A stretch of DNA of 64,000 nt, taken from assembly GCF_009192745.1 (NCBI RefSeq), contig NZ_VTFV01000002.1:744001-808000 (forward strand), in the 5' to 3' direction. Shown here piece by piece: positions 3,921 through 60,429 of the stretch (the stretch's first letter is position 1; every line of letters starts with the position of its first letter). The notes under the pieces were generated by a model, which was not told where the DNA came from, ran no database searches, and saw only the letters and a program-made list of their open reading frames with translations. Origin of the DNA: Arthrobacter citreus (GTDB lineage Bacteria > Actinomycetota > Actinomycetes > Actinomycetales > Micrococcaceae). The position numbers and the translations under genes were made by a program.

Positions 3921-6638
3921 GTGCCAGTTAAGGCAACGGAGAAGTCGACCGGCAAGAAGAAGAAGCTGGTAATTGTCGAGTCACCGGCCAAGGGCAAGAC
4001 GATCGCCGGCTATCTTGGCGACGGCTTTGAGGTCACGGCGTCGATGGGTCATATCCGTGACCTTCCGCAGCCCTCGGACCTTCCCGCCGAGCTGAAGAAG
4101 AGTTCGCTGGGCAAGTTTGCCGTTGACCTGGATAAGGACTTCGAGCCCTATTACGTTGTCTCCACGGACAAGAAGAAGAAGGTTGCGGAGCTCAAGGCCG
4201 CGCTCAAAGACGCCGACGAACTCTACCTCGCAACTGACGGTGACCGCGAAGGCGAAGCCATCGCGTGGCACCTGCTCCAGGTGCTGAAGCCGAAGGTTCC
4301 CGTCCACCGCCTGACCTTCCCGGAAATCACCAAGGAAGCGATCCAGCGGGCGTTGCTGGAAATGCGGGACATCGACATCTCCATGGTCGATGCCCAGGAA
4401 ACCCGCCGCATCCTGGACCGCCTCTACGGCTACGAGATCTCCCCTGTGCTCTGGCGCAAGGTGGCCCGCGGCCTCTCCGCCGGCCGCGTCCAGTCCGTGG
4501 CAACCCGCCTGGTCGTAGAGCGCGAACGCGAGCGGATGGCGTTCCGCTCCGCGTCCTACTGGGACCTGCTCGGCACGTTCTCCACTGCCTCCTCGGAAAG
4601 TTTCAAGGCGCGCCTGACTTCGGTTGACGGCGCCCGGATCGCGTCCGGCAAGGACTTCACCGACCGCGGCGAGCTCAAGTCCAAGAACGTCACGCACCTG
4701 GATGAAGCGGCCGCCCTGTCCCTCGCCGAAGGCCTGCAATCGGCGTCGTTCACCGTCCGGTCCCTTGAAACCAAGCCGTACACCCGCCGCCCCGCAGCCC
4801 CGTTCACCACCTCCACGCTGCAGCAGGAGGCCAGCCGCAAGCTGCGCTTCTCCTCCCGCGTGACCATGCAGGTTGCGCAGCGGCTGTATGAAAACGGCTA
4901 CATCACCTATATGCGTACCGATTCCTCGTCCCTGTCGGACCAGGCAATCAACGCTGCCCGCCGGCAGGCTTCGGAACTCTACGGACCCGAGTATGTGCCC
5001 GAAGCCCGCCGCGTCTACAAAGGCAAGTCCAAAAACGCTCAGGAAGCCCACGAGGCCATCCGCCCCGCCGGCGACTCCTTCCGCACCCCGGCGCAGGTTG
5101 CATCCTCGCTGCGCGGAGACGAGTTCAAGCTCTATGAACTGATCTGGAAGCGCACCGTCGCCTCCCAGATGGCGGACGCCAAGGGTTCGACGGCGTCAGT
5201 CAAGCTGGGTGCCGTCTCGGCTGACGGGCGTGACGCCGAATTCTCGGCCTCCGGTACCGTCATCACCTTCCGCGGTTTTATGGCCGCCTACGAAGAAGGC
5301 CACGACGCTACCCGGGACGAGGACGAAGGTTCCGAAGGAGGACGCCTGCCGGTCCTCAAGAAGGACGATCCGCTCAGCGCCGCCGACCTGGCAGCCAGCG
5401 GCCATGAAACTTCCCCGCCGCCGCGCTTCACCGAAGCTTCGCTGGTGAAGACGCTCGAAGAGCTGGGAATCGGACGCCCGTCCACGTACGCCGCGACGAT
5501 CTCCACGATCATGGACCGCGGGTACGTCACGCAGCGCGGCCAGGCACTGGTGCCCAGCTGGATTGCGTTCTCCGTGGTCCGGCTGCTGGAGGAACACTTC
5601 ACTGACTACGTGGACTACGACTTCACCGCCGAAATGGAAGAGGACCTGGACCGCATTGCGCGCGGCGAAGCCGGCCGCGTGGAGTGGCTGAACCAGTTCT
5701 ACTACGGCGACCGGAAAGACACCGGCCTGCACACCATCGTCAACGACCTCGGTGAAATCGACGCACGTGCCGTGAACTCCATCGAGATCGCCGACGGCAT
5801 TGTGCTGCGCGTGGGCAAGTTTGGCCCGTACCTGGAGCGCCCGCTGCCGGCGGACGCCCCGGAAGGCACCGAACCCGACCGCGCCAACGTACCCGAGGAC
5901 CTTGCCCCGGATGAGCTGACCGCTGAGAAGGCCATTGAGCTGATGAACAGTGCCGGCCCCGAGGAGCGCGTACTGGGGGAGGACCCCGAGACCGGGCGGA
6001 CCATCGTGGCGCGCAACGGCCGTTACGGCCCGTACGTCATTGAACTCATTCCGGAGCCCACGGCCGAGGAACTGGCGAACCAGCCGGTGGAGTATTACAA
6101 GAACGGCAAGCCCAAGCCGCCGAAGAAGCCTGCCAAGGTTAAGCCGCGCACGGGTTCGCTGTTCAAGTCCATGAGCGTGGAGACTGTCACCCTGGAAGAG
6201 GCGCTGAAGCTGATGCGTCTGCCCCGGGTGCTGGGCACCGACGCCGAGGGCAATGAGATCACCGTGCAGAACGGCCGGTTTGGTCCGTACCTGAAGAAGG
6301 GCACCGACTCCAGGTCGATCGGCTCCGAGGAGGAGATCTTCACGATCACCCTGGAGCAGGCACTGGAGATCTACTCCCAGCCCAAGCAGCGCGGCGGGCG
6401 GCAGGCTGCGGCTCCGCTGGCCGAGTTCGGCACCGATCCCGTCTCGGAGAAGCCGGTAGTGGTCAAGGACGGCCGCTTTGGTCCCTACATCACCGACGGC
6501 ATCACCAACATCACCGTTCCGCGGTCCATGGCCATTGAGGAACTGACCCGGGAACGGGCGCTTGAACTGCTCGCGGAGAAGCGCGAGAAGGGCCCGGCCA
6601 AGAAGCCGGTCCGCAAGCGCGCGACGGCCAAGAAGTAA
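3921..6638 (+). CDS. topA: DNA topoisomerase I (type IA)
   Basis: This enzyme relaxes negative supercoils by transient single-strand cleavage. The Toprim domain begins KLVIVESPAKGK (Glu20), with the metal-binding D-G-D-R-E at residues 106-110. The catalytic tyrosine lies in GYITYMRTDS (about Tyr330). The C-terminal half carries four repeats of the type NGRFGPYL, followed by a lysine/arginine-rich tail ending KKPVRKRATAKK, as in other actinobacterial TopA proteins of about 900 residues. The GTG start at 3921 is chosen because AGGAGA lies just upstream; an in-frame ATG at 3894 has no ribosome site. Monocistronic. Confidence 0.97.
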   Translation: MPVKATEKSTGKKKKLVIVESPAKGKTIAGYLGDGFEVTASMGHIRDLPQPSDLPAELKKSSLGKFAVDLDKDFEPYYVVSTDKKKKVAELKAALKDADELYLATDGDREGEAIAWHLLQVLKPKVPVHRLTFPEITKEAIQRALLEMRDIDISMVDAQETRRILDRLYGYEISPVLWRKVARGLSAGRVQSVATRLVVERERERMAFRSASYWDLLGTFSTASSESFKARLTSVDGARIASGKDFTDRGELKSKNVTHLDEAAALSLAEGLQSASFTVRSLETKPYTRRPAAPFTTSTLQQEASRKLRFSSRVTMQVAQRLYENGYITYMRTDSSSLSDQAINAARRQASELYGPEYVPEARRVYKGKSKNAQEAHEAIRPAGDSFRTPAQVASSLRGDEFKLYELIWKRTVASQMADAKGSTASVKLGAVSADGRDAEFSASGTVITFRGFMAAYEEGHDATRDEDEGSEGGRLPVLKKDDPLSAADLAASGHETSPPPRFTEASLVKTLEELGIGRPSTYAATISTIMDRGYVTQRGQALVPSWIAFSVVRLLEEHFTDYVDYDFTAEMEEDLDRIARGEAGRVEWLNQFYYGDRKDTGLHTIVNDLGEIDARAVNSIEIADGIVLRVGKFGPYLERPLPADAPEGTEPDRANVPEDLAPDELTAEKAIELMNSAGPEERVLGEDPETGRTIVARNGRYGPYVIELIPEPTAEELANQPVEYYKNGKPKPPKKPAKVKPRTGSLFKSMSVETVTLEEALKLMRLPRVLGTDAEGNEITVQNGRFGPYLKKGTDSRSIGSEEEIFTITLEQALEIYSQPKQRGGRQAAAPLAEFGTDPVSEKPVVVKDGRFGPYITDGITNITVPRSMAIEELTRERALELLAEKREKGPAKKPVRKRATAKK

Positions 6639-49878: not shown

Positions 49879-50319
49879 CTAGCTGATGCAGAACTCGTTG
49901 CCCTCCGGGTCCGCCATCGTGTACCAGAGATGCGGACCCTGGCTGGCCTCCCAGAGGAACGTGGCGCCGCGGGCTTCAAGGGCTGCGCGGGTGGCGTTGA
50001 TGTCCTCGCCCGAGAGCCGGATGTCCAGGTGGATCCGGTCCTTGACCGTCTTGGGCTCCGGAACCGGCTGGAACAGGATGCGCATGGGAGTCACCGGGGA
50101 TCCCGGCGGAACCGGCTGCAGGACCGCTGATCCGGCCGCCCACATTCGGGTTCCGTTGTGGTCAATGACGTCATCCGGGGAGGCAAAGCCCTTCGCGAGC
50201 ATTTCGTCGATGAAGTCCTGGTTGGTTTCCTCGACCGGCCAGCCGAGGGTTTCCGCCCACCAGTCGGCCTGGTCGTGGGCGTTCTTGCAGTCGATGCAGA
50301 TCTGGATGTCGTAAGCCAT
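49879..50319 (-). CDS. VOC family protein (glyoxalase-like)
   Basis: A 146-residue protein of two paired beta-alpha-beta modules as in glyoxalase I and extradiol dioxygenases. Start AYDIQICIDCKNAHDQADWWAETLGW and end LWYTMADPEGNEFCIS are typical of the actinobacterial glyoxalase-like group. Metal binding is uncertain. No operon partner; it converges on the CPBP gene. Function unknown. Confidence 0.85.
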   Translation of the reverse strand: MAYDIQICIDCKNAHDQADWWAETLGWPVEETNQDFIDEMLAKGFASPDDVIDHNGTRMWAAGSAVLQPVPPGSPVTPMRILFQPVPEPKTVKDRIHLDIRLSGEDINATRAALEARGATFLWEASQGPHLWYTMADPEGNEFCIS

Positions 50320-50413
50320 AGGGCCAAACCTAGAGCAGCTTCGGCCGTGCGGCCTTCATAATGCGGACAAGTGCCGTCCGGAATCGGGCCTGCCCCTAAA
50401 CTGGGCGGCACAT

Positions 50414-50743
50414 ATGGCAGGGGGAATGATGCTTGAGTTCCACGACGACGCAATGCTGCGGCTGCAGGGCATGCAGCCCAACTGGATGGCACCAAAACCC
50501 ATTCCTGCAGGCTTGGACGCCCTTCTGAGGTGGCCGGCGCTTTTTCGGAACCTGCCGCAGCGCGAGGCCACTGCTGTGCGGGAGGCCTGTGCTGCCGTCT
50601 GGTGTGCGGGATGGACTGCTCCGGACCGGCGGGACGTAGCGGACCTTGTGGCGGAGATCGAGGGCGGAATCGACCTTACGGAGTATCGGCGTCGTATGCG
50701 GCTGCGTTACCCGAATGCCCCGGAAGAACCGTCACGTGTTTGA
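50414..50743 (+). CDS. Hypothetical protein, 109 aa
   Basis: A small acidic to neutral helical protein (MAGGMMLEFHDDAMLRLQGM...), with no signal peptide or membrane helix and no recognised family. Starts at 50414, 50426 and 50429 are all in frame, the last two better placed after GGGGG. Its last codons (from 50731) lie inside the left copy of the 34-bp direct repeat that flanks the downstream catabolic genes. This matters if the 3' end was reshaped by that event. Confidence 0.5.
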   Translation: MAGGMMLEFHDDAMLRLQGMQPNWMAPKPIPAGLDALLRWPALFRNLPQREATAVREACAAVWCAGWTAPDRRDVADLVAEIEGGIDLTEYRRRMRLRYPNAPEEPSRV

Positions 50744-50764
50744 CCGCCCCTGCCTGTTCTGCGA
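50731..50764. repeat. 34-bp direct repeat, left copy
   Basis: Matches 59097-59130 at 31 of 34 positions, with the core TGTTTGACCGCCCC and CCTGTTCTGCGA identical. The two copies bracket the genes from 51044 to 59080. Confidence 0.8.
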
Positions 50765-51043
50765 AGTCCGTGAGATGAGGACGAGACCCCGGTTTCGACC
50801 GCAATACCGCCGAGGACGGCTGATGCCACTGCCAACTGCCCACTGCCTCACGAGCATCATCTCTGTGTTGAACGGTTTGCGCTTGTTTGGGGAACGATGG
50901 TCAGTGAACGGGCCGCCGGTTGATGCCAAGCCAACATGGTTCCGCTCTGCGGAAAAGGGTTCCGGGCATTTTCATTGTGGCTGGTCAGCCGCTCTTCCTA
51001 GGCTGAAAGCACATTGGAGTACAGCCACAGGGGAGTGTAGATC
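50744..51043. other. 300-bp promoter region of the catabolic island
   Basis: No coding frame is supported. It holds the end of the left direct repeat, then about 170 bp without clear structure, then the 39-bp operator-like element (50939-50977), the matching promoter (50975-51004) and the ribosome site GGGGAG of the dehydrogenase gene. Confidence 0.6.
50939..50977 (+). promoter_or_regulatory. IclR-type operator element, copy 1
   Basis: Contains the perfect dyad TTCCGC-tct-GCGGAA (50940-50954), a further TTCCG (50960-50964) and ends ATTTTCATTG. Copy 2 at 55047-55085 shares TTCCG-N5-CGGAA, the extra TTCCG and the ending at identical spacing. It ends over the -35 box TTGTGG (50975-50980), which is followed after 18 bp by TAGGCT (50999-51004). 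Confidence 0.7.
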
Positions 51044-52558
51044 GTGCGGGTTGGGGTCGTAGGGGCAGGGGTTATGGGGCGGGGCATCGCTGCCGCCTCG
51101 GCAGTCGCAGGACATGAAGTTCTGCTTTACGACGTCATTCCAGGCGCTGCACAGACTGCCCTGGACGGAATTGAACAGAGCCTGGCGCGCCGGGCGCTCA
51201 AGGGCAGGATTACGGAGTCAGAGGTTGTCCTCGCCCGTGGGCGGCTCCGGGCAGCTGGTGCACTGACTGAGCTCAGCCTCTGCCGTATCGTCGTCGAGGC
51301 AGTCATCGAGTCGCTTGAGGCCAAACAGCAGGTTTTTGCAGCACTGGAGGACAACGTCAGCACGGATGCGATCCTGGCCACCAACACCTCGTCCCTGTCC
51401 GTGGCAGCCATCGCCCGCGGAACCGCGCATCCGGAACGCTTCCTGGGAATGCACTTCTTCAACCCCGTCAGCGCCATGGACCTCGTGGAGATCGTCCCGG
51501 GCCCGGCCACGGGACCCGAGGTACTCGCCGGCGCACAGGCCTTCATCCGGGGCCTGGGCAAGACGGATGTCGTGGTTAGGGACAGCCCAGGTTTCCTGGT
51601 GAACCTCGCTGGTCGTGCACTCGCCACGGAAGCCCTGCATATCGTCCAGGACGGCGCGGCCAGTTTCCGGCAAGTGGACACCGTCGCCCGGAGGAACCTT
51701 GGTTTTCCGTTGGGGCCCTTCGAGCTCATGGACCTAACCGGCATGGACGTGAACTATCCGGTGACAGCCAATCTTTTCGAACACAATTTCGCAGACGACA
51801 GGCTGCGGTCGACCTGGTATCACCGCTGGTTGTTCGAAGCCGGCATGCTGGGCAGGAAGACGGGGCAGGGATACTACGCGTACCCCGAGCGGACGCCTGA
51901 GCCATCTGCTCAGGACGTACTGGCGCCATCCGGCAACGACGTGCCTGCGGTAACGGTCGCGGGCGGATTCGCCGCGCTGCTTAAGGACTGGCTTACGGAA
52001 CGAGGAGTGCCTGTCACCGACGTCGTGGCAGATGCGGCCCTCTGTGTGGTGGCAGCGGAGGGCCTTGATGCCTCCCGAACGGCCGCGGCCCTGGGGGTTG
52101 ACCCCAGACGGACCGTTGCCCTTGATCTCTGGGATCCCGACGCGCCCGTTACGGTCCTCATGGTTCCGCCCGGTGTCCCCACTGAGACCGTGGGAGCCCT
52201 GGCGGCGCATCTGCGTCGCAGGCAGGACGTGGAGGTGATCGCCGACACTCCCGGATTCATTGGCCAGCGTTTGCTGGCCGCGGTCATTAATCTGGCTTGC
52301 GACATTGCCCAGCGGAGGATCGCTTCGCCGGCTGACATCGACACTGCCGTGACACTCGGACTTGGGTACCCCTACGGACCCCTGGCCTGGGCTGATCAAG
52401 TGGGGCCTGAAAGGATCGTCCGTGTTCTCGATGGCATGTTCGAGGCGACTCGGGACCCGCGTTACCGCTGCAGTCCCTGGCTGCGCCGCCGCGCAGCGGC
52501 CGGCCTTTCCTGTCTCGAACCGGACTATGAACCCGGGGCTCCGCTTTCCCAGCTTTGA
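51044..52558 (+). CDS. 3-hydroxyacyl-CoA dehydrogenase (PaaH-like, two 3HCDH domains)
   Basis: Oxidises a 3-hydroxyacyl-CoA to the 3-oxoacyl-CoA with NAD+. The 504 residues comprise a Rossmann fold (VGVVGAGVMGRGIAAASAVAG), the catalytic His region GMHFFNPVSAMDLVEIV, and two consecutive C-terminal dimerisation domains (DSPGFLVNLAGRALATEAL and DTPGFIGQRLLAAVINLAC). This layout matches PaaH/PaaC 3-hydroxyadipyl-CoA dehydrogenases. GTG start with GGGGAG upstream. First gene of a three-gene operon with two crotonases, preceded by the IclR-type element. Confidence 0.9.
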   Translation: MRVGVVGAGVMGRGIAAASAVAGHEVLLYDVIPGAAQTALDGIEQSLARRALKGRITESEVVLARGRLRAAGALTELSLCRIVVEAVIESLEAKQQVFAALEDNVSTDAILATNTSSLSVAAIARGTAHPERFLGMHFFNPVSAMDLVEIVPGPATGPEVLAGAQAFIRGLGKTDVVVRDSPGFLVNLAGRALATEALHIVQDGAASFRQVDTVARRNLGFPLGPFELMDLTGMDVNYPVTANLFEHNFADDRLRSTWYHRWLFEAGMLGRKTGQGYYAYPERTPEPSAQDVLAPSGNDVPAVTVAGGFAALLKDWLTERGVPVTDVVADAALCVVAAEGLDASRTAAALGVDPRRTVALDLWDPDAPVTVLMVPPGVPTETVGALAAHLRRRQDVEVIADTPGFIGQRLLAAVINLACDIAQRRIASPADIDTAVTLGLGYPYGPLAWADQVGPERIVRVLDGMFEATRDPRYRCSPWLRRRAAAGLSCLEPDYEPGAPLSQL

Positions 52559-52599
52559 ACCCAGCAGCAACAACCGTTACAACACGAAGGAATGACCAG

Positions 52600-53409
52600 A
52601 TGTCGGTATATGACGCATACGAGCACCTGCTGATCGAGGAAGTTGAGGAGGGCATTCTCAGAGTCACCATGCACAGTCCGGGACGGCTTAATGCCGCTCA
52701 CGCAGGAATGCACACCGAGCTGGCCCGGATCTGGAAAGACATAGACGAGGATCCGAACGTCAACGTCGCCATCCTGACCGGATCCGGGGGAGTCTTCTCA
52801 GCGGGCGGGGACCTGGACCTGGTAAAGGACATGTCGGAAAATTTCGATGTCCTGACCCGGGTCTGGAAGGAAGCCCGTGACCTCGTCTACAACGTCATTA
52901 ACTGTTCTAAGCCGATTGTCTCCGCGATGGAAGGTCCAGCCGTGGGCGCCGGGCTGGCCGCTGGCCTGCTTGCCGACATTTCCATCGCCGCGAAGGATGC
53001 TCGCATCATCGACGGACACACCCGCTTGGGCGTGGCGGCGGGGGACCATGCGGCTATCGTATGGCCTCTGCTCTGCGGCATGGCCAAGTCGAAGTACCAC
53101 CTCATGCTTTGTGAGCAAGTGACAGGTGAGGAAGCCGAACGCATGGGCCTCGTTTCGCTGACCGTCGACGCCGGCGACGTTCAGGACCGGGCGCTTGAAG
53201 TGGCTAGGAAACTGAACCGCGGTTCCAAGACAGCACTTCGTTGGACCAAGTACGCGCTCAATAACTGGCTGCGGATGGCAGGGCCAACCTTTGACGCAAG
53301 CCTGGCGCTGGAGTTCATGGGTTTCAACGGGCCGGACATCAGGGAAGGCCGGGCCTCCGTGCTGGAGAAGCGCCGTCCGCAGTTCGGCGCTCCGGCAGAG
53401 ACACGCTGA
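52600..53409 (+). CDS. Atypical enoyl-CoA hydratase/isomerase family protein
   Basis: A crotonase-fold protein of 269 residues. The oxyanion-hole segment [15 protein letters not shown] and the motif [21 protein letters not shown] are intact. The two glutamates used by classic hydratases are missing: the first position reads DGHTRLG (His140), and the region of the second reads [10 protein letters not shown]. An Asp occurs in AAGDHAA (Asp149). It may therefore be a hydrolase, isomerase or ring-cleaving enzyme rather than a simple hydratase. ATG at 52600 follows GAAGGA. Same operon as its neighbours. Confidence 0.82.
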
Positions 53410-53411
53410 AC

Positions 53412-54206
53412 ATGGTTGCAAGCGACGTGGGCGCTGTGGGACATATCCTCGTCGAGGCGCCTGCCCCGGGAGTAGCGCTGGTGCGCATCTGCCGGCCGGA
53501 GGCGCGCAACGCCCTGTCCATGCCACTGCGTGAGGAACTTGCGGACGTCTTCCACGCGCTGGAAGCGGACCACGCCGTCCGGGCCGTGGTCCTGGCCGGG
53601 ACGGATGGGTTCTTTGCCGCCGGCGCGGATGTCAGGAGCATGGTCGGGGTTGGGCCCATTGAGATGTACCAGCGTCACACAGAGCGGCTGTGGGGAGCGG
53701 TGGGTTCCTTCAGCCGCCCGGTCATCGCCGCCGTTAACGGGCATGCTCTCGGTGGCGGACTTGAACTGGCGATGAACACTGACATCATCATCGCCGCCGA
53801 TTCAGCGAAGCTCGGTCAGCCCGAGGTCCGCCTGGGCATTATGCCGGGCGCAGGGGGGACCCAGCGGCTGCTGCGGGCAGTTGGAAAATTCCACGCAATG
53901 CGGCTGTGCCTGACGGGTGAGACCATCACGGCCACCGAAGCGCGGGATATGGGACTCGTCTCGATGGTGGTCCCGTCCGCCGAGGTGGAAGAGACCGCTG
54001 TCCGGATGGCGCAGGATATCGCGGCCCTTCCGGCGGTAGCGGTGGAACAGATCAAGGAAGTGATCACTCTGGGCGCGGATGCGCCGCTGGAAGCAGCCAT
54101 GGCTCTGGAGCGCAAGGCGCTGCAGCTGCTATTCGCCAGCGCGGACAAGGAAGAAGGACTGGTCGCTTTCACCGAAAAACGCCGTCCGAACTTCACGGGC
54201 CGGTAA
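53412..54206 (+). CDS. Enoyl-CoA hydratase, PaaF-like
   Basis: A 264-residue crotonase. The first catalytic glutamate is present (Glu138 in [20 protein letters not shown]), while the second is Arg164 (HAMRLCLTG). E. coli PaaF likewise lacks the second glutamate and has Lys there, so the protein resembles phenylacetate-pathway hydratases more than fatty-acid ones. It ends KRRPNFTGR. It starts right after the stop of the previous crotonase gene and ends at a two-way terminator. Confidence 0.88.
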
Positions 54207-54207
54207 C

Positions 54208-54251
54208 AATGATTGTGGGGCAGCTGCTGAAGCAGCTGCCCCACAATCATT
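54208..54251. terminator. Bidirectional terminator between convergent genes
   Basis: Perfect 21-nt arms (54208-54228 and 54231-54251), starting AATGATTGTGGGGCAGC on both strands, separated by only two bases. It lies exactly between the stops of the convergent hydratase and IclR genes. Confidence 0.85.
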
Positions 54252-54256
54252 CCCAG

Positions 54257-54997
54257 TTAGTCGGCGAGGTAGTCCGCGGACTGGAGCAGCGGCGGGACCA
54301 GTTCGGCGGCGATATCCGCCGCCTCAAGCTGACTGGTCCGGGCGATGAGGGTCAGGGCATACAGTTCGCCGCTGCACCGGACAGGAACAGCTACGCCGCC
54401 GAGGTCCGTGTTCCAGCCTCCGATGCTGGACACATACCGACCCGATGCCGCCGCCAGACGTTCCTCGAAAGGTGTGACGGGCTGGCCGCGGCGTTCAAGG
54501 TCATAACGGATGGATGACGTCAGTCGGCTCTTCTCGGGTTCCTCCGACGCTGCGACAAACGCCAGCCCTGCCGCCGAAACCGAGATGGGCAACCGTCCGC
54601 CAACTGCGAGGTTGACACTGCTGGAATTACGCGGACGCGTAACGCTCATAAACGTCATGTGCAGGCCGTCCCGGGTTGCCAGGGCAGCAGTGAGCCCGGT
54701 CGTATCGGCAAGGCTGTCCAACGCCCTGCGCGCCCGTCCGGCGATCGGAAGGTTCACCAGGACCGGGTAGCCCAGACGCAGGTTTTTCGGAGTCAGATAG
54801 TAGGCGCCGGAATCAGAACTGACTCTGAGATACCCCAACTGGACCAGACTGTCCGTGAGCCGGGAAACAGTGGAAGGCGGGAGTCCGGTGGCACGTGAAA
54901 GCTGTCCGTTGCCCATGGAACCCGTTGCGCGGGAGAGGACTTCAAGGATCTTTAGCCCGCGGGCGAGGGCTTCTATGGGTCTGGTAGGGGAGCTCAC
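54257..54997 (-). CDS. IclR family transcriptional regulator
   Basis: A 246-residue regulator. The N-terminal winged helix reads ALARGLKILEVLSRATGSMGNGQLSRATGLPPSTVSRLTDSLVQLGYL. The C-terminal effector domain spans residues 80-246 with LADTTGLTAALATRDGLHMTF. IclR proteins of catabolic clusters usually sense a pathway acid or CoA thioester. The shared 39-bp elements before both operons here are its probable targets, and their place upstream of the -35 box suggests activation. The GTG at 54997 is preferred; an in-frame start at 55018 is possible. Confidence 0.9.
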   Translation of the reverse strand: MSSPTRPIEALARGLKILEVLSRATGSMGNGQLSRATGLPPSTVSRLTDSLVQLGYLRVSSDSGAYYLTPKNLRLGYPVLVNLPIAGRARRALDSLADTTGLTAALATRDGLHMTFMSVTRPRNSSSVNLAVGGRLPISVSAAGLAFVAASEEPEKSRLTSSIRYDLERRGQPVTPFEERLAAASGRYVSSIGGWNTDLGGVAVPVRCSGELYALTLIARTSQLEAADIAAELVPPLLQSADYLAD

Positions 54998-55046
54998 ATA
55001 TCTGATCGTAGCGATCAACCGCTGCCCCGGCTGAAACTGGACGCAC

Positions 55047-55085
55047 GTTCCGACAGGCGGAAATAGCTTCCGACAATTTTCATTG
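55047..55085 (+). promoter_or_regulatory. IclR-type operator element, copy 2
   Basis: Contains the dyad TTCCG-acagg-CGGAA (55048-55062), a further TTCCG and the ending ATTTTCATTG, the same order and spacing as copy 1 at 50939. It overlaps the -35 box TTGAAG (55083-55088), followed after 18 bp by TAGCGT (55107-55112). It lies between the IclR gene and the AtoE-type transporter, so it could control both. Confidence 0.7.
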
Positions 55086-55171
55086 AAGCCTGCGACAGTG
55101 CCTCATTAGCGTGATGGGACGGGCAATGCCGAGAACCCCGTATCCACTCCGAAACGAAAGTCGAGCTGTCC

Positions 55172-56566
55172 ATGTCAATGACGACTGCGCGCCGAAAGCT
55201 CTCCCTCTCAGAAAAAGTTGCGACCGGTTACTCACGTTATTTTCCTGATTCTTTGATATTTGCGCTTGTACTAACCGTCATCGCCATGATTCTGGCGCTG
55301 ATCTACACCGACTCGGGGGTAGGGGAGGTGATGGACGCCTGGTTCGTGGGTATTCCCATGCTCTTCACCTTCGCGTTCCAGCTGGCCTTCACTTACGCCG
55401 CAGCCCTAGTCCTCGTTGACACTCCCAGAATCCAGCAGCTCATCCGGCGTCTTGCACAGCTGGTGCGTACGCCGCAGGCGGCCTACATTTACACCGGTAT
55501 CTTCGGTGCGCTGACGTCATTCGTCGGGTGGTACATCGGTCCAGTAGTCACCGCCATTTTTGCCCGGGCCGTGGCCAAGGAATTGAAGGGTGTCGATTAC
55601 CGTCTCATCTCGGCCATTGCTTATTCATCCTTCGTCATTTCCCTGACTGGTATTTCCGGAACGATTCCGCTGTTCGTGGCATCGGAAGGCCCGCTGACGG
55701 AAACCCTGGGTGGGCTCATCGGCCTCCAGGACACTACGTTCTCCGTCATGAACCTGGCCTCGGCCGCCATGATTGTCCTGGCCACGACGGTCACGTTTTA
55801 CTTTATCGCCCGTAACAAGAAGCACGTGGTGTCCTTCGCTGACCTTGCCGTCGGTGCCGCCGACGAGCGGACGGACCGTGTTGAGGACGAAGAGAGCGCC
55901 GACCTGGCAGACGGTGGCAGCTTCGCCTCCCGGGTCAACCGAAGCCGGCTGCCGATCCTCATCATCGGTCTGCTGGGCCTTGGCTACCTGGTCTTCTACT
56001 TTGTCCAGAACGGCCTCAGCGGCCTGGACCTGAACACCGTGGCCTTCATTGCTCTCGTCATGGGACTGCTGGTCCAGCGAAACGCAGTGACATACTCCGC
56101 GTCCTTCGCCCGCAACCTCGTCTCGACCGGCTCAATCATGCTGCAGTTCCCCATCTACGGGGGAATAGCCTCAATTTTCGCCGTGACGGGCCTGGCCGGC
56201 GTGCTCACCGAGGGTCTGGTGAGCATCTCTAACGAGTACACCTACCTGACGATCACATTCCTCATCACGGGGGTGCTGAACCTCTTCGTCCCCTCTGCGG
56301 GATCACAGTTCGTTGCCACAGCTCCCTTCTTCATTCCGGCGGGTGAGAGCTTCGGGATCGACAACACCTTGACGGTGATGGCCATCACCTATGGTGACAT
56401 CTGGACCAACCTGATTCAGCCGTTTTGGGCACTGCTGTACTTTCCGATCCTTGCCGCTGGTACTCGCCTGAGGGTTCGGGACTTTCTAGGGTACTGCCTC
56501 CCCATTCTGGTGGTGGTCGGCATCATCTGGATCATTGCCCTGAACTTCATTCCGCTGCATCTGTGA
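55172..56566 (+). CDS. AtoE-type short-chain fatty acid transporter
   Basis: A membrane protein of 464 residues with about ten to twelve helices, matching the AtoE family of short-chain carboxylate permeases. Conserved stretches seen are GWYIGPVVTAIFARAVAKEL, SLTGISGTIPLFVASEGPL and FVPSAGSQFVATAPFFIPAGESFG. It probably imports the carboxylic acid that the downstream ligase activates. The first 30 codons are less GC-rich than neighbouring genes. First gene of the second operon under the IclR-type element. Confidence 0.88.
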   Translation: MSMTTARRKLSLSEKVATGYSRYFPDSLIFALVLTVIAMILALIYTDSGVGEVMDAWFVGIPMLFTFAFQLAFTYAAALVLVDTPRIQQLIRRLAQLVRTPQAAYIYTGIFGALTSFVGWYIGPVVTAIFARAVAKELKGVDYRLISAIAYSSFVISLTGISGTIPLFVASEGPLTETLGGLIGLQDTTFSVMNLASAAMIVLATTVTFYFIARNKKHVVSFADLAVGAADERTDRVEDEESADLADGGSFASRVNRSRLPILIIGLLGLGYLVFYFVQNGLSGLDLNTVAFIALVMGLLVQRNAVTYSASFARNLVSTGSIMLQFPIYGGIASIFAVTGLAGVLTEGLVSISNEYTYLTITFLITGVLNLFVPSAGSQFVATAPFFIPAGESFGIDNTLTVMAITYGDIWTNLIQPFWALLYFPILAAGTRLRVRDFLGYCLPILVVVGIIWIIALNFIPLHL

Positions 56567-56615
56567 CCGAGAAAAACCAAAATAACCCTGAAACAACGTA
56601 CGTGAGGCCATAAGC

Positions 56616-58043
56616 ATGACCACTCCCCACCGCCCTGCGGTCCGCCCGCCCTACTACTACGAGTCCCTGGACTGGGCAGGGCTCGTCAAGGAGTACGAGC
56701 CGCCCTTCGAGTTCATGACCGGGGCCCGTCTATGGTCCCGGGACCAGATTGCTGAGGAGCAGCTCAAACGGCTGCGGGGTGCAATGTCCCGCGCCGCGAC
56801 GGTTCCGTTCTACCAGCGGTTGTGGGGGGAAGCCGGTTTCCATCCGGAGGACGTCAAATCGCTTGAGGACCTCTCCCGGATGCCCCTCTACACGATCGAC
56901 GACATCCGGGACAGCATCGAACGCCGGCCGCCGTTGGGCGACTATCAAGGCTTGGGCTTCGAAGACGGGGCAGCCACCCCCTTGCGCCTCTACACCAGCG
57001 GCGGTACCACCGGGGCGCCCCGGCCGACCATCTACAGCCAGTGGGACCGGGAGGTAGGCGCTATCCTCAGTGCGCGGACCTTCTACATGCAGGGGGTCCG
57101 CCCTGGCGACGTCGTGATGAATGCGTGGGCATACTCGACCCACAATGCAGCATGGATCATGGACCATGCGCTTTGGCACTGGTTAGGGGCCACCCCCCTG
57201 ACCACCAGCACCGGAAATGTCACGCCCACGGAGAAGCAGGTGGAGCTGGCACACCTCTTTAAGGCATCCTCCATCACCGCCACCTCTGATTATCTTCTGC
57301 ACATCGCGGACACAGCACGGAAGATAGGCCTTGACCCGAAACATGACCTCTCCCTGAAAACCCTGCTTTCGTTTGGGGACACAGCGGCCGTAGAAGAAGC
57401 CTTCGGGGTACCCACGTACGACTCGTACGCCTTCCATGAAGTCCAGTACGTGGCCGCCGAGTGCCACGCAAAAGACGGACTGCACGTCTTCGAGGACGCC
57501 TTCATTGTGGAAGTCGTCGATTTCGAAACAGGTCAACCGCTGCCACCCGGCCATCGGGGCAACCTCGTGGTTACAGCGCTTTACAAGACTGGAACATCGC
57601 AACTGCGCTACAACATCCAGGATATTTCTGCCGCGTATGAGGATGTCGAGTGTGCGTGCGGGAGCCGGCACCGGAAATTGGACTACTTCCAGGGACGAAG
57701 CGACACCATGGTGAAGCTGCGCGGTGTCAATGTCTGGCCGGAGGCGTGCGGCAGGATCGTCCGTGAGCACCCGGGCGTGACCGGTGAATACTTCTGCATC
57801 GCCCAGCGGGTTCAGCCTGAGGGCAAGCCAGCTCGGGACGCCATGACGATCATGGTCGAAACGGTAGAAGGAGCGGAGGGCTCCTTCCAGCTGCGCGCGG
57901 AATTGGAGAAACTGCTCAAGCAAAAAGTCGGAGTCCAGATCGACGTGGAACTCGTCGGCCGTGATTCGCTTCGTGGCCTCACCGGCCACGGAGAACGTGC
58001 CAAGCTCAAGCGGTTCGAGGACCAGCGGACGGTGAACCGGTGA
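56616..58043 (+). CDS. PaaK-like phenylacetate/aryl--CoA ligase family protein
   Basis: An adenylate-forming acyl-CoA ligase of 475 residues. The phosphate loop is LYTSGGTTGAPRPTIYS, later motifs are TYDSYAFHEVQYVAAECHAKDGLHVFED and the hinge region YFQGRSDTMVKLRGVNVWPEACGRIV, and the C-terminal lysine region ends HGERAKLKRFED. These motifs and the length place it with phenylacetate-CoA ligases. True PaaK proteins are about 430 residues and differ in the first 60, so the natural substrate is open. GTGAGG precedes the ATG. It overlaps the next gene by four bases (GTGA). Confidence 0.86.
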   Translation: MTTPHRPAVRPPYYYESLDWAGLVKEYEPPFEFMTGARLWSRDQIAEEQLKRLRGAMSRAATVPFYQRLWGEAGFHPEDVKSLEDLSRMPLYTIDDIRDSIERRPPLGDYQGLGFEDGAATPLRLYTSGGTTGAPRPTIYSQWDREVGAILSARTFYMQGVRPGDVVMNAWAYSTHNAAWIMDHALWHWLGATPLTTSTGNVTPTEKQVELAHLFKASSITATSDYLLHIADTARKIGLDPKHDLSLKTLLSFGDTAAVEEAFGVPTYDSYAFHEVQYVAAECHAKDGLHVFEDAFIVEVVDFETGQPLPPGHRGNLVVTALYKTGTSQLRYNIQDISAAYEDVECACGSRHRKLDYFQGRSDTMVKLRGVNVWPEACGRIVREHPGVTGEYFCIAQRVQPEGKPARDAMTIMVETVEGAEGSFQLRAELEKLLKQKVGVQIDVELVGRDSLRGLTGHGERAKLKRFEDQRTVNR

Positions 58044-59080
58044 AGGCGTACGTTCAGCAGGAGCACGGCCGGCCCGTGGAGGCTGTCGAGATGCCCGATC
58101 CTTCTCCGCAGCACGGAGAGATCGTGGTGTCCGTGGCCAGCTGCGGCCTGAACCATCTGGACCTGTGGCTGAAACAGGGTTCCACGGGCGATGACCTGAG
58201 ACTGCCGCGGGTTCCCGGGAGTGACGTTGTTGGGCGCGTCACTGAGCTGGGAGCGGGCGTTGATCCCGCGCTGGCCGGGAAGAACGTGGTCCTCTACCCG
58301 GGTAGAGGCTGCGGAAACTGTGACTGGTGCTCGTCCGGGCATCCCAGCGCCTGCCGGGGGTTCCGGATCATGGGATATTCCTTCGACGGGGGATATGCCG
58401 AGCAGGTCGTCGTACCTGCTGAATCAGCCATGGTGTTGGGCGATGACCCGGATCCTGCCTGGGCTGCGGTGCCGGTGGCCTACGTGACGGCTTGGAACGC
58501 CCTGGTGACTAAGGGCGGGCTGGAGAAGGGAAAGACGGTAGCGGTCTGGGGAGCTGCGGGAGGTTTGGGTAACGCCGCGCTCCGCCTTGCAAAGGCCATG
58601 GGCGCCATCCCATTGCCGATCGTCGGTTCCGAGGAAAAAGCCTCCTGGTTGGCAGCCACGGGATGGTCCGGGGACATTGTTGTCAGAGGAGAAGACGTGG
58701 CGTCCGAAGTCCGGTCCCTCACCGGCGGACGAGGCGTAGACGTGGTCCTGGATCATGTCGGCGCCGCTGCGGTCAACAGCAGCCTGCGGATGTTGGCGGT
58801 ACGTGGACACCTGGCCTTCTGCGGGGTCACCACAGGGCACAGCGTGGAGATGGATCTGCGGCAGATTTTCGGAAAGCAACTTACGGTTGCGGGAACATGG
58901 ATCGGTGATCCCTCGGACATGCGTGATGTCGTGCGTTTCCTGGACCAGAATCCGCAGGCACTGCCAGTCGTCCAAGCGTCCTATGCATTCGATGACGCCC
59001 GCGCTGCGCAGGACGCCCAGTCCGATCCCGGACGCAGCGGAAAGGTAGTACTGCGTTCGAGTGGACCTGCGCAGGCCTAG
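58040..59080 (+). CDS. Zinc-binding alcohol dehydrogenase family protein
   Basis: A medium-chain dehydrogenase of 346 residues. The structural zinc site is intact (Cys91, Cys94, Cys97, Cys105 in GCGNCDWCSSGHPSAC). The catalytic-zinc region reads SCGLNHLDLW with Cys35 and His39, and the cofactor fold is VAVWGAAGGLGNAALRLAKAMGA. It probably oxidises or reduces a hydroxyl/keto group of a pathway intermediate; similar enzymes act on alicyclic hydroxyacyl-CoA esters. GTG start overlapping the ligase stop. Last gene before the right direct repeat. Confidence 0.87.
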   Translation: MKAYVQQEHGRPVEAVEMPDPSPQHGEIVVSVASCGLNHLDLWLKQGSTGDDLRLPRVPGSDVVGRVTELGAGVDPALAGKNVVLYPGRGCGNCDWCSSGHPSACRGFRIMGYSFDGGYAEQVVVPAESAMVLGDDPDPAWAAVPVAYVTAWNALVTKGGLEKGKTVAVWGAAGGLGNAALRLAKAMGAIPLPIVGSEEKASWLAATGWSGDIVVRGEDVASEVRSLTGGRGVDVVLDHVGAAAVNSSLRMLAVRGHLAFCGVTTGHSVEMDLRQIFGKQLTVAGTWIGDPSDMRDVVRFLDQNPQALPVVQASYAFDDARAAQDAQSDPGRSGKVVLRSSGPAQA

Positions 59081-59096
59081 TGGGGAGCTGGCGGAT

Positions 59097-59130
59097 GTCA
59101 CCTGTTTGACCGCCCCGCCCTGTTCTGCGA
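59097..59130. repeat. 34-bp direct repeat, right copy
   Basis: Matches 50731-50764 at 31 of 34 positions. It ends four bases before the dyad upstream of the thiolase gene. Confidence 0.8.
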
Positions 59131-59133
59131 TTG

Positions 59134-59157
59134 TTTATAGAACGATTGGTCGGTAAA
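59134..59157. promoter_or_regulatory. TetR/PaaR-like operator upstream of thiolase
   Basis: TTTATAGAACGATTGGTCGGTAAA pieces form a dyad: TTTATAGAACGA against TTTACCGACCAA (reverse of the right half), 8 of 12 matching. The half ACCGACC resembles operators of actinobacterial TetR regulators of phenylacetate and fatty-acid genes. The regulator gene is not in the window. Confidence 0.5.
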
Positions 59158-59217
59158 TCCGGCAGCCGTGCGGGCAGCGAAGCCCGGCGGCGAACTGGCA
59201 ACTCTTTGGGAGCAGAC

Positions 59218-60429
59218 ATGGCTGAGGCTTTTCTCGTTGGCGGAGTGCGGACCCCGGTGGGCCGCTACGGAGGTGCGCTGTCCAGCGTCCGTCCCGATGA
59301 CCTCGCAGCACTGACACTGCGTGAACTCGTAGCCCGCGAAGGCCTGGACCCCGCCGTCGTGGACGAAGTCATCCTCGGCAATGCCAACGGTGCAGGCGAA
59401 GAAAACCGCAACGTGGCACGCATGGCTGCCCTCCTGGCAGGGTTCCCGGACACCGTCCCGGGCATCACCGTGAACCGCCTTTGCGCCTCGGGCCTCTCCG
59501 CGATCATCATGGCCTCGCACATGATCAAGGCAGGCGCCGCGGACATCGTCATCGCCGGCGGCACTGAGTCCATGAGCCGTGCTCCCTGGGTAACCGAGAA
59601 GCCGACCAAGGCCTTCGCCAAGCCCGGAGACACCTTCGACACCTCGATCGGCTGGCGCTTCGCCAACGAACGCTTCGTCTCCGGCGATCTCTCCCGCGAC
59701 GGGAAGATGACGTACTCGATGCCGGAAACCGCCGAAGAACTGGCTTCCACGGACAGCATTTCCCGCGAAGACGCCGACGCGTTCGCCGTCCGCTCGCACG
59801 AAAAGGCCCTGGCTGCCATCGCCGCCGGACGCTTCAAGGACGAAATCGTTCCCGTCACCATCAAGGGCCGCAAGGGCGATACCGTCGTAGACACCGACGA
59901 AGGACCCCGCGAAGGCACCACCCTGGAGGTCCTCTCCAAACTGCGCCCCGTGGTCAAGCCCGGGGGCATCGTCACGGCAGGCAACGCCAGCTCCCTGAAC
60001 GACGGCGCCTCGGCGATCATCATCGCCTCCGAGCGCGCTATCAAGGAATACGGCCTCACCGCCCGCGCCCGGATCGTCGACGGCGCCTCCGCCGGTGTCC
60101 CGCCGGAAATCATGGGCATCGGTCCTGTTCCGGCCACGCAGAAGGTCCTGCAGCGCAGCGGCATCAGCCTGGACCAGGTTGGCGCCTTCGAGCTCAACGA
60201 AGCCTTCGCCACCCAGTCCCTGGCCTGCATCCGCCGCCTCGGCGTTGACGAGGGAATCGTGAACAACGACGGCGGCGCCATCGCCCTGGGCCACCCGCTC
60301 GGCTCCTCCGGCTCCCGTATCGCCATCACGCTGCTGGGCCGCATGGAACGCGAAGGCGCCTCCCACGGCATCGCGACCATGTGCGTGGGCGTCGGCCAGG
60401 GCACTGCCATGCTGATCGAGGCCGTGTAG
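59218..60429 (+). CDS. paaJ: Acyl-CoA thiolase, PaaJ/PcaF-like
   Basis: Cleaves a 3-oxoacyl-CoA, probably 3-oxoadipyl-CoA, to acetyl-CoA and succinyl-CoA. The 403-residue protein begins AFLVGGVRTPVGRYGGALSSVRPDDLAA, close to the PaaJ/PcaF start. The nucleophile is Cys89 (NRLCASG), with ELNEAFATQ, the His in NNDGGAIALGHPLGSSGSR, and the second Cys in ATMCVGVGQGTA. The ATG at 59218 with GGGAG is preferred; an in-frame ATG at 59131 would add 29 unrelated residues and overlap the operator. First of a three-gene operon. Confidence 0.92.
   Translation: MAEAFLVGGVRTPVGRYGGALSSVRPDDLAALTLRELVAREGLDPAVVDEVILGNANGAGEENRNVARMAALLAGFPDTVPGITVNRLCASGLSAIIMASHMIKAGAADIVIAGGTESMSRAPWVTEKPTKAFAKPGDTFDTSIGWRFANERFVSGDLSRDGKMTYSMPETAEELASTDSISREDADAFAVRSHEKALAAIAAGRFKDEIVPVTIKGRKGDTVVDTDEGPREGTTLEVLSKLRPVVKPGGIVTAGNASSLNDGASAIIIASERAIKEYGLTARARIVDGASAGVPPEIMGIGPVPATQKVLQRSGISLDQVGAFELNEAFATQSLACIRRLGVDEGIVNNDGGAIALGHPLGSSGSRIAITLLGRMEREGASHGIATMCVGVGQGTAMLIEAV

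Follow-up and report, generated by a model that had tools for sequence, protein, structure and literature searches.

Organization of the locus

We analysed a window of 64,000 nucleotides from Arthrobacter citreus (assembly GCF_009192745.1, 3.55 Mb in 13 contigs; contig NZ_VTFV01000002.1, positions 744,001-808,000), focusing on a gene for an IclR-family regulator, the two operons that flank it and a pair of 39-bp elements considered here as putative operators. Window numbering is used throughout (Table 1). Copy 1 of the element lies upstream of operon 1, which codes for a 3-hydroxyacyl-coenzyme A (CoA) dehydrogenase and two hydratases, and copy 2 is located between the divergent iclR gene and operon 2, which codes for an acid transporter, a CoA ligase and an alcohol dehydrogenase. 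In the case of PcaU, the site is located between the divergent regulator gene and operon. The iclR product matches both family signatures, PF09339 with 58.7 bits (cut-off 22) and PF01614 with 42.3 bits (cut-off 24). A limited search of a restricted library found no literature on this regulator or on the inserted island that carries these genes.

Table 1. Features of the locus, in window numbering; positions given as - or + refer to the strand.
Feature	Position	Strand	Remarks
34-bp direct repeat, left copy	50731-50764	+	31/34 identical to 59097-59130
Insertion (island)	50765-59096		8,332 bp; holds iclR, both modules and six further genes; edge positions ambiguous over the 34-bp repeat
Putative operator copy 1	50939-50977	+	boxes 50940-50944, 50950-50954, 50960-50964; possible fourth 50970-50974
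Putative promoter P1	50975-51004	+	-35-like TTGTGG 50975-50980, 18-bp spacer, -10-like TAGGCT 50999-51004
3-hydroxyacyl-CoA dehydrogenase, operon 1	51044-52558	+	PF02737, PF00725; NF006124 531.5 bits (cut-off 508)
Enoyl-CoA hydratase/isomerase family, operon 1	52600-53409	+	NF005595 451.1 bits (cut-off 292); EchA15-like in PDB
Enoyl-CoA hydratase, operon 1	53412-54206	+	NF006007 371.8 bits (cut-off 355)
Perfect 20-bp inverted repeat	54208-54251		where operon 1 and iclR converge; predicted RNA folding energy -47.3 kcal/mol, z -9.3
IclR-family regulator (iclR)	54257-54997	-	GTG start, TTG 55018 alternative; PF09339, PF01614
Candidate iclR -10 TACGAT	55005-55010	-	ends 7 nucleotides before GTG 54997; read from sequence
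Possible extra box of copy 2, towards iclR	55038-55042	-	TGGAC, 4/5 of YGRAA, weak; CGGAC in A. gandavensis; absent at copy 1
Putative operator copy 2	55047-55085	+	boxes 55048-55052, 55058-55062, 55068-55072; possible fourth 55078-55082
Putative promoter P2	55083-55112	+	-35-like TTGAAG 55083-55088, 18-bp spacer, -10-like TAGCGT 55107-55112
Short-chain fatty acid transporter family, operon 2	55172-56566	+	PF02667 309 bits; under TIGR00366 cut-off
PaaK-like acid-CoA ligase, operon 2	56616-58043	+	PF14535; best solved relative phenylacetate-CoA ligase 4r1l; below PaaK cut-offs
Zinc-binding alcohol dehydrogenase, operon 2	58040-59080	+	PF00107, PF08240
34-bp direct repeat, right copy	59097-59130	+	upstream of core thiolase gene

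Two elements with the same geometry

A sequence-only reading of this DNA had described two 39-bp elements carrying TTCCG-N5-CGGAA and a second TTCCG in the same register, a -35-like box overlapping the end of each element and followed by an 18-bp spacer, and an IclR gene beside copy 2. We recovered all of these features, with the promoter-like hexamers at equal distances from the two elements. The copies are identical at 29 of 39 positions, and the best of 500 pairs of shuffled intergenic regions reached 26. They have in common the three exact half-sites, TTCCG-N5-CGGAA-N5-TTCCG (boxes 1 to 3), and the terminal ATTTTCATTG, which at both element ends includes the TTG of the -35-like hexamer. 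Their likeness is confined to the element, with 5 of 20 identical bases to its left and 6 of 20 to its right, and a direct-repeat search of positions 50600-59300 returned this pair as the longest direct repeat.

The arrangement is rare both in the window and in the genome. The full pattern (boxes plus ATTTTCATTG, with up to three mismatches) matched the window at the two elements only and none of 100 shuffles. Out of 1144 TTG triplets on both strands of the window, two have the layout TTG-N21-TANNNT, and they are exactly those of P1 and P2. The genome-wide scan for TTCCG-N5-CGGAA-N5-TTCCG proposed in the sequence-only reading gave two exact matches, versus none for the zero-mismatch control. 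The looser pattern TTYCR-N5-YGRAA-N5-TTYCR, which corresponds to the three-box spacing of IclR sites with alternating directions and is exact in both copies, was found in the same two places, with one match for the reversed control. The sole one-mismatch match to the strict motif (C5:301201) falls within an open reading frame (ORF) and was dropped as a third genomic site. Allowing up to two mismatches yielded 34 matches versus 9 for the reversed pattern; 31 of them have exactly two mismatches, including copy 2 itself read on the opposite strand.

Comparison with known IclR systems

The IclR survey of Suvorova and Gelfand (2021, PMC8222616) gives the site consensus GKTYCRYW3-4RYGRAMC, predicts for 32 ortholog groups sites with three boxes that alternate in direction, and locates the majority of IclR sites between -20 and -80 relative to the start codon. 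It also cites PcaU, whose binding requires a third box, an external direct half-site beside the palindrome. The elements described here resemble these three-box operators in that they harbour three alternating boxes with an IclR gene alongside. Counted by eye, boxes 1-2 match the consensus at 13 (copy 1) and 12 (copy 2) of 14 box letters; boxes 2-3 follow the order and spacing of group 2 of the survey, with just 10 and 8 of 14 letters. Unlike the three-box sites presented there, ours have in common a T-rich tail, in which a fourth, direct half-site may lie beside the -35-like hexamer. The palindromes are centred at -64 from the assumed transcription starts; relative to the start codons, their centres are at -97 and -117.

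Among regulators, PcaU and PobR of Acinetobacter baylyi also belong to the IclR family and use a palindrome with an external direct half-site (as cited in PMC8222616). The best NCBIfam model for the window IclR protein is indeed PcaR/PcaU/PobR (TIGR02431), but its score of 90.3 bits versus a cut-off of 284.75 places the protein outside that subfamily. The half-sites here are TTCCG rather than GTTCG or GTCCG, and the targets are CoA-ester and transport genes rather than ring-cleavage genes. The structure of another IclR-family member, TtgV of Pseudomonas putida, is available with DNA, and Thr43 and Arg46 of the window protein align with its DNA-contacting Thr49 and Arg52; TtgV differs in that it regulates efflux pumps (PMC8222616). 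IclR-type regulators are depicted as transcription-inducing tetramers in PMC10400447.

Three-box sites across the family

Of 395 genomes of the family, 12 carry the strict three-box motif, at 14 sites in total, versus 6 sites for the reversed control. Eight of the sites are within ORFs, namely a sigma-70-like gene (three genomes), an amino-acid-kinase gene that we take to be PyrH-like (three genomes), a zf-CGNR gene and a glycosyltransferase gene (one genome each). These assignments come from Pfam for four of the eight sites and were judged from similar translations for the remainder. The eight ORF sites are at about chance level.

The other six sites lie between Pfam-supported genes, although some are crossed by mechanically called ORFs in other reading frames. 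Two are those of the window genome, two are in genome G058, and G183 and G782 have one each. All six fall in clusters that include an IclR gene, and these represent three independent clusters. The G183 site is located between transporter and metallo-hydrolase genes, close to genes for IclR, P450 and ferredoxin reductase. The G782 site belongs to a run of transporter, OsmC, dehydrogenase, enolase-like and IclR genes (the dehydrogenase and enolase-like labels were given by eye), with the IclR gene approximately 2.9 kb away. Identity to the window protein is only 21% for the IclR protein of G183 and 23% for that of G782, yet both harbour the same Thr43 and Arg46 in the recognition helix. Two such independent sites in IclR clusters of other family species, at 5207-5231 of locus L064 and 8340-8364 of L076, are each followed by a T-rich tract.

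We also scanned 40 IclR loci with 1.5-kb flanks, including those of the window and of Arthrobacter gandavensis. Matches of at least 14 of 15 box letters were found at copy 2, at its A. gandavensis counterpart and, with 14/15, at one site of L031; the reversed control gave none of at least 13/15.

Conservation in Arthrobacter gandavensis

The closest named relative of the regulator is found in A. gandavensis, at 98% identity, and the other match of the same search, from Mesorhizobium, is at 26%. This one sister species, on which our comparison is based, retains both sites, including an operator in front of genes that adjoin the IclR gene. At copy 1, 38 of 39 element positions are identical, compared with 137 of 172 aligned bases in the upstream region and 13 of 18 in the promoter spacer; despite the divergence of the spacer, the P1 hexamers and their spacing are unchanged. 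At copy 2, 37 of 39 element positions are kept, as are 43 of 49 positions between iclR and the element. The three substitutions across the two elements are all outside boxes 1-3. Judged from this alignment, copy 1 appears as a clear footprint.

Beyond this species, close relatives are scarce. At E <= 1e-22, the regulator was found in one of 396 genomes of a phylum sample, the window's own, with about six candidates scored per genome, such that a diverged ortholog could escape. The transporter was detected in five other genomes of the 396, at 35-37% identity. Plasmid records yielded 259 matches to the regulator and 73 to the transporter, all below 60% identity.

The modules belong to one inserted island

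In two relatives, G232 and G032, the counterpart of window positions up to 50764 is followed directly by that of positions from 59097 onwards, and in a third, G131, the break runs from 50307 to 59135. As the flanks are adjacent in these genomes, both modules, iclR and six other genes constitute a single insertion. This 8.3-kb unit is newly seen here. Its GC content is 0.62, versus 0.66 and 0.67. The stretch 50384-50729 is likewise partly or wholly missing from G232 and G032. Flanking genes at most 5 kb apart, leaving no room for the island, were found in 5 of 29 genomes of the genus, and the DNA was read for three of the five. The paired sites are present in 2 of the 29 genomes; these are the same two genomes that have a close copy of the regulator among the 24 searched for it. 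The ligase is found at 98% identity in one other of the 29 genomes, and elsewhere its relatives are at just 29-38%. The rarity of the island among genus genomes argues for its gain. The 34-bp direct repeat at its edges would fit deletion by recombination as well as insertion. In A. gandavensis, we did not find the left repeat copy at this edge of the island. The relatives carry a single copy, upstream of the core thiolase gene.

The sequence-only reading had also proposed an island. The island is real, but it ends near 59096, and the thiolase, hydratase and hydroxybutyryl-CoA dehydrogenase genes beyond it, at 59.1-62.0 kb, are core genes of the genus. We had initially assumed that the thiolase operon was part of the island; this was ruled out, as G232, G032 and G131 have its genes but no island. 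The DNA upstream of the core operon is also kept, with 91% identity to G232 over 59097-59250. G232 and G032 also retain the region 59120-59170 upstream of the thiolase gene, which contains GATTGTTTATAGAACGATTGGTCGGTAAATC and resembles an operator for a different regulator.

Gene content suggests that the island serves to take up an organic acid, convert it to its CoA ester, and hydrate and oxidise the latter. No acyl-CoA dehydrogenase domain was found among the ten proteins scanned, and the substrate is possibly an unsaturated or 3-hydroxy acid. Thiolysis may be supplied by the neighbouring core operon.

Several other features were observed at the locus. The inverted repeat between operon 1 and iclR is probably a terminator common to both. 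The position of the candidate -10 hexamer suggests that the iclR mRNA may be leaderless. A perfect 15-bp palindrome, TGATCGTAGCGATCA (55003-55017), covers the presumed iclR promoter and start, is unchanged in A. gandavensis and is possibly another operator. The leader of operon 2 (55115-55171), which is identical at 57 of 57 positions in A. gandavensis and exceeds the adjacent genes in this respect, contains an internal ATG that opens a short overlapping frame. To the left of the island, an ORF of 109 residues (50414-50743) has a weak match to the VbhA antitoxin (29.8 bits, cut-off 25.9); the corresponding region is at about 2491-2560 in L078, and seemingly just its 3' end is left in G232.

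Interpretation

We consider it probable that the IclR protein acts on both operators, most likely activating operons 1 and 2 together. Its binding to the two elements is very likely. The half-sites TTCCG, CGGAA and TTCCG alternate in direction and are placed one helical turn apart, just upstream of a presumably weak promoter; with this spacing, they all face one side of the DNA. We propose that IclR, together with an organic-acid ligand and as dimers or a tetramer, would bind there and help RNA polymerase at both promoters, such that the genes of the two operons would be switched on jointly. Copy 2, given its location between the divergent iclR gene and operon 2, probably controls iclR too, which would make the regulator autoregulated. 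The whole would then represent one inserted catabolic island bearing its own switch.

The sequence-only reading had claimed coordinate activation. Its coordinate part is well supported by the IclR geometry, the uniqueness of the sites in the genome, the co-occurrence of the pair with the regulator and the IclR clusters elsewhere. The activation part is deduced from position: the sites are further upstream than the -20 to -80 range of the survey and the promoters are weak, which by our own estimate distinctly favours activation over repression; a dual role is conceivable.

A number of points weigh against this interpretation. The case is built on sequence comparison, and its footprint comes from one sister species; moreover, copy 2 is no better kept there (37/39) than its own leader (57/57), which makes it indistinguishable as a footprint. 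The hexamers match the sigma-70 consensus at just 6 and 7 of 12 positions (counted by eye), and a consensus sigma-70 scan of 50744-55260 returned no promoter, implying that P1 and P2 are weak promoters or none. The family count of 14 sites versus 6 for the control indicates that most isolated matches are due to chance, and the lack of any other site this good in the 40-locus scan, bar the one 14/15 match, indicates that the motif is not general to the IclR proteins of the family.

As a tentative and rather doubtful extension, the operator might comprise four half-sites, all filled by an IclR tetramer on one DNA face, with the fourth contact handing the complex to RNA polymerase. Both elements have TTTCA at positions 32-36, which forms a TTYCR box 10 bp after box 3 and abuts the -35-like hexamer. 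The boxes would thus start at element positions 2, 12, 22 and 32, in exact 10-bp steps, with directions right-left-right-right. In copy 2 of A. gandavensis, TTTCA is replaced by TTCCA, which retains TTYCR. The possible fourth box is at -39 from the assumed start in both copies, a presumed geometry compatible with an activator half-site near -40 that abuts the -35; the scan gives no consensus promoter there. The four-box arrangement is disfavoured by the fit of the fourth box at the independent sites (by eye, just 3/5 in G183 and 4/5 in G782); the eight ORF sites have 1 or 2 of 5. In addition, the TTTCA tract belongs to one block common to both copies and hence counts as a single observation, and the T-rich tract may just be bendable DNA.

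An unlikely alternative is that the same regulator and operators work by repression, the promoters being closed until an acid or CoA ester releases the protein. Consistent with this, the -35-like hexamer is adjacent to the operator or overlapped by it, so binding could block the polymerase. However, the three certain boxes are upstream of the -35, away from the -10 and the start codon, and the hexamers are weak, whereas a repressed promoter is expected to be stronger. Neither argument is decisive.

We find it improbable that another regulator of the genome binds both elements, with the adjacent IclR protein acting on other targets or on itself alone. The genome does harbour 26 matches to the HTH_IclR model, and the pairing of this IclR protein with the elements is drawn from sequence. 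Nevertheless, sites, regulator and targets are all in one insertion, within the genus the pair of sites is found together with a close copy of the regulator, and the half-sites have the IclR geometry, with no further strict site in the genome.

That the likeness of the two copies is due to chance or is the remnant of a duplication, without regulatory meaning, is hardly credible: the copies lie within 4.1 kb, compatible with duplication, and the sigma-70 scan gave no promoter, but the likeness stops at the element edges, 0 of 500 shuffled pairs reach 29/39, the A. gandavensis differences spare boxes 1-3, and the rare TTG-N21-TANNNT layout is present at both sites, each preceding an operon.

We thus regard the two operators as a real and well-supported pair of ordinary kind, which delimits the regulon of a single inserted catabolic island. 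Activation by the IclR protein remains our preferred reading of how this pair works. With it, an uncharacterised IclR protein gains a precise predicted operator and a complete small regulon, and a regulator, its two operators and their target genes are seen arriving as one inserted unit. Two promoters of the same geometry in one cell amount to an internal replicate for the contact between an IclR activator and RNA polymerase, and a four-box operator, if true, would provide a defined docking register for IclR activators. Identifying the acid of the island would name the pathway and could turn the regulator into a sensor.

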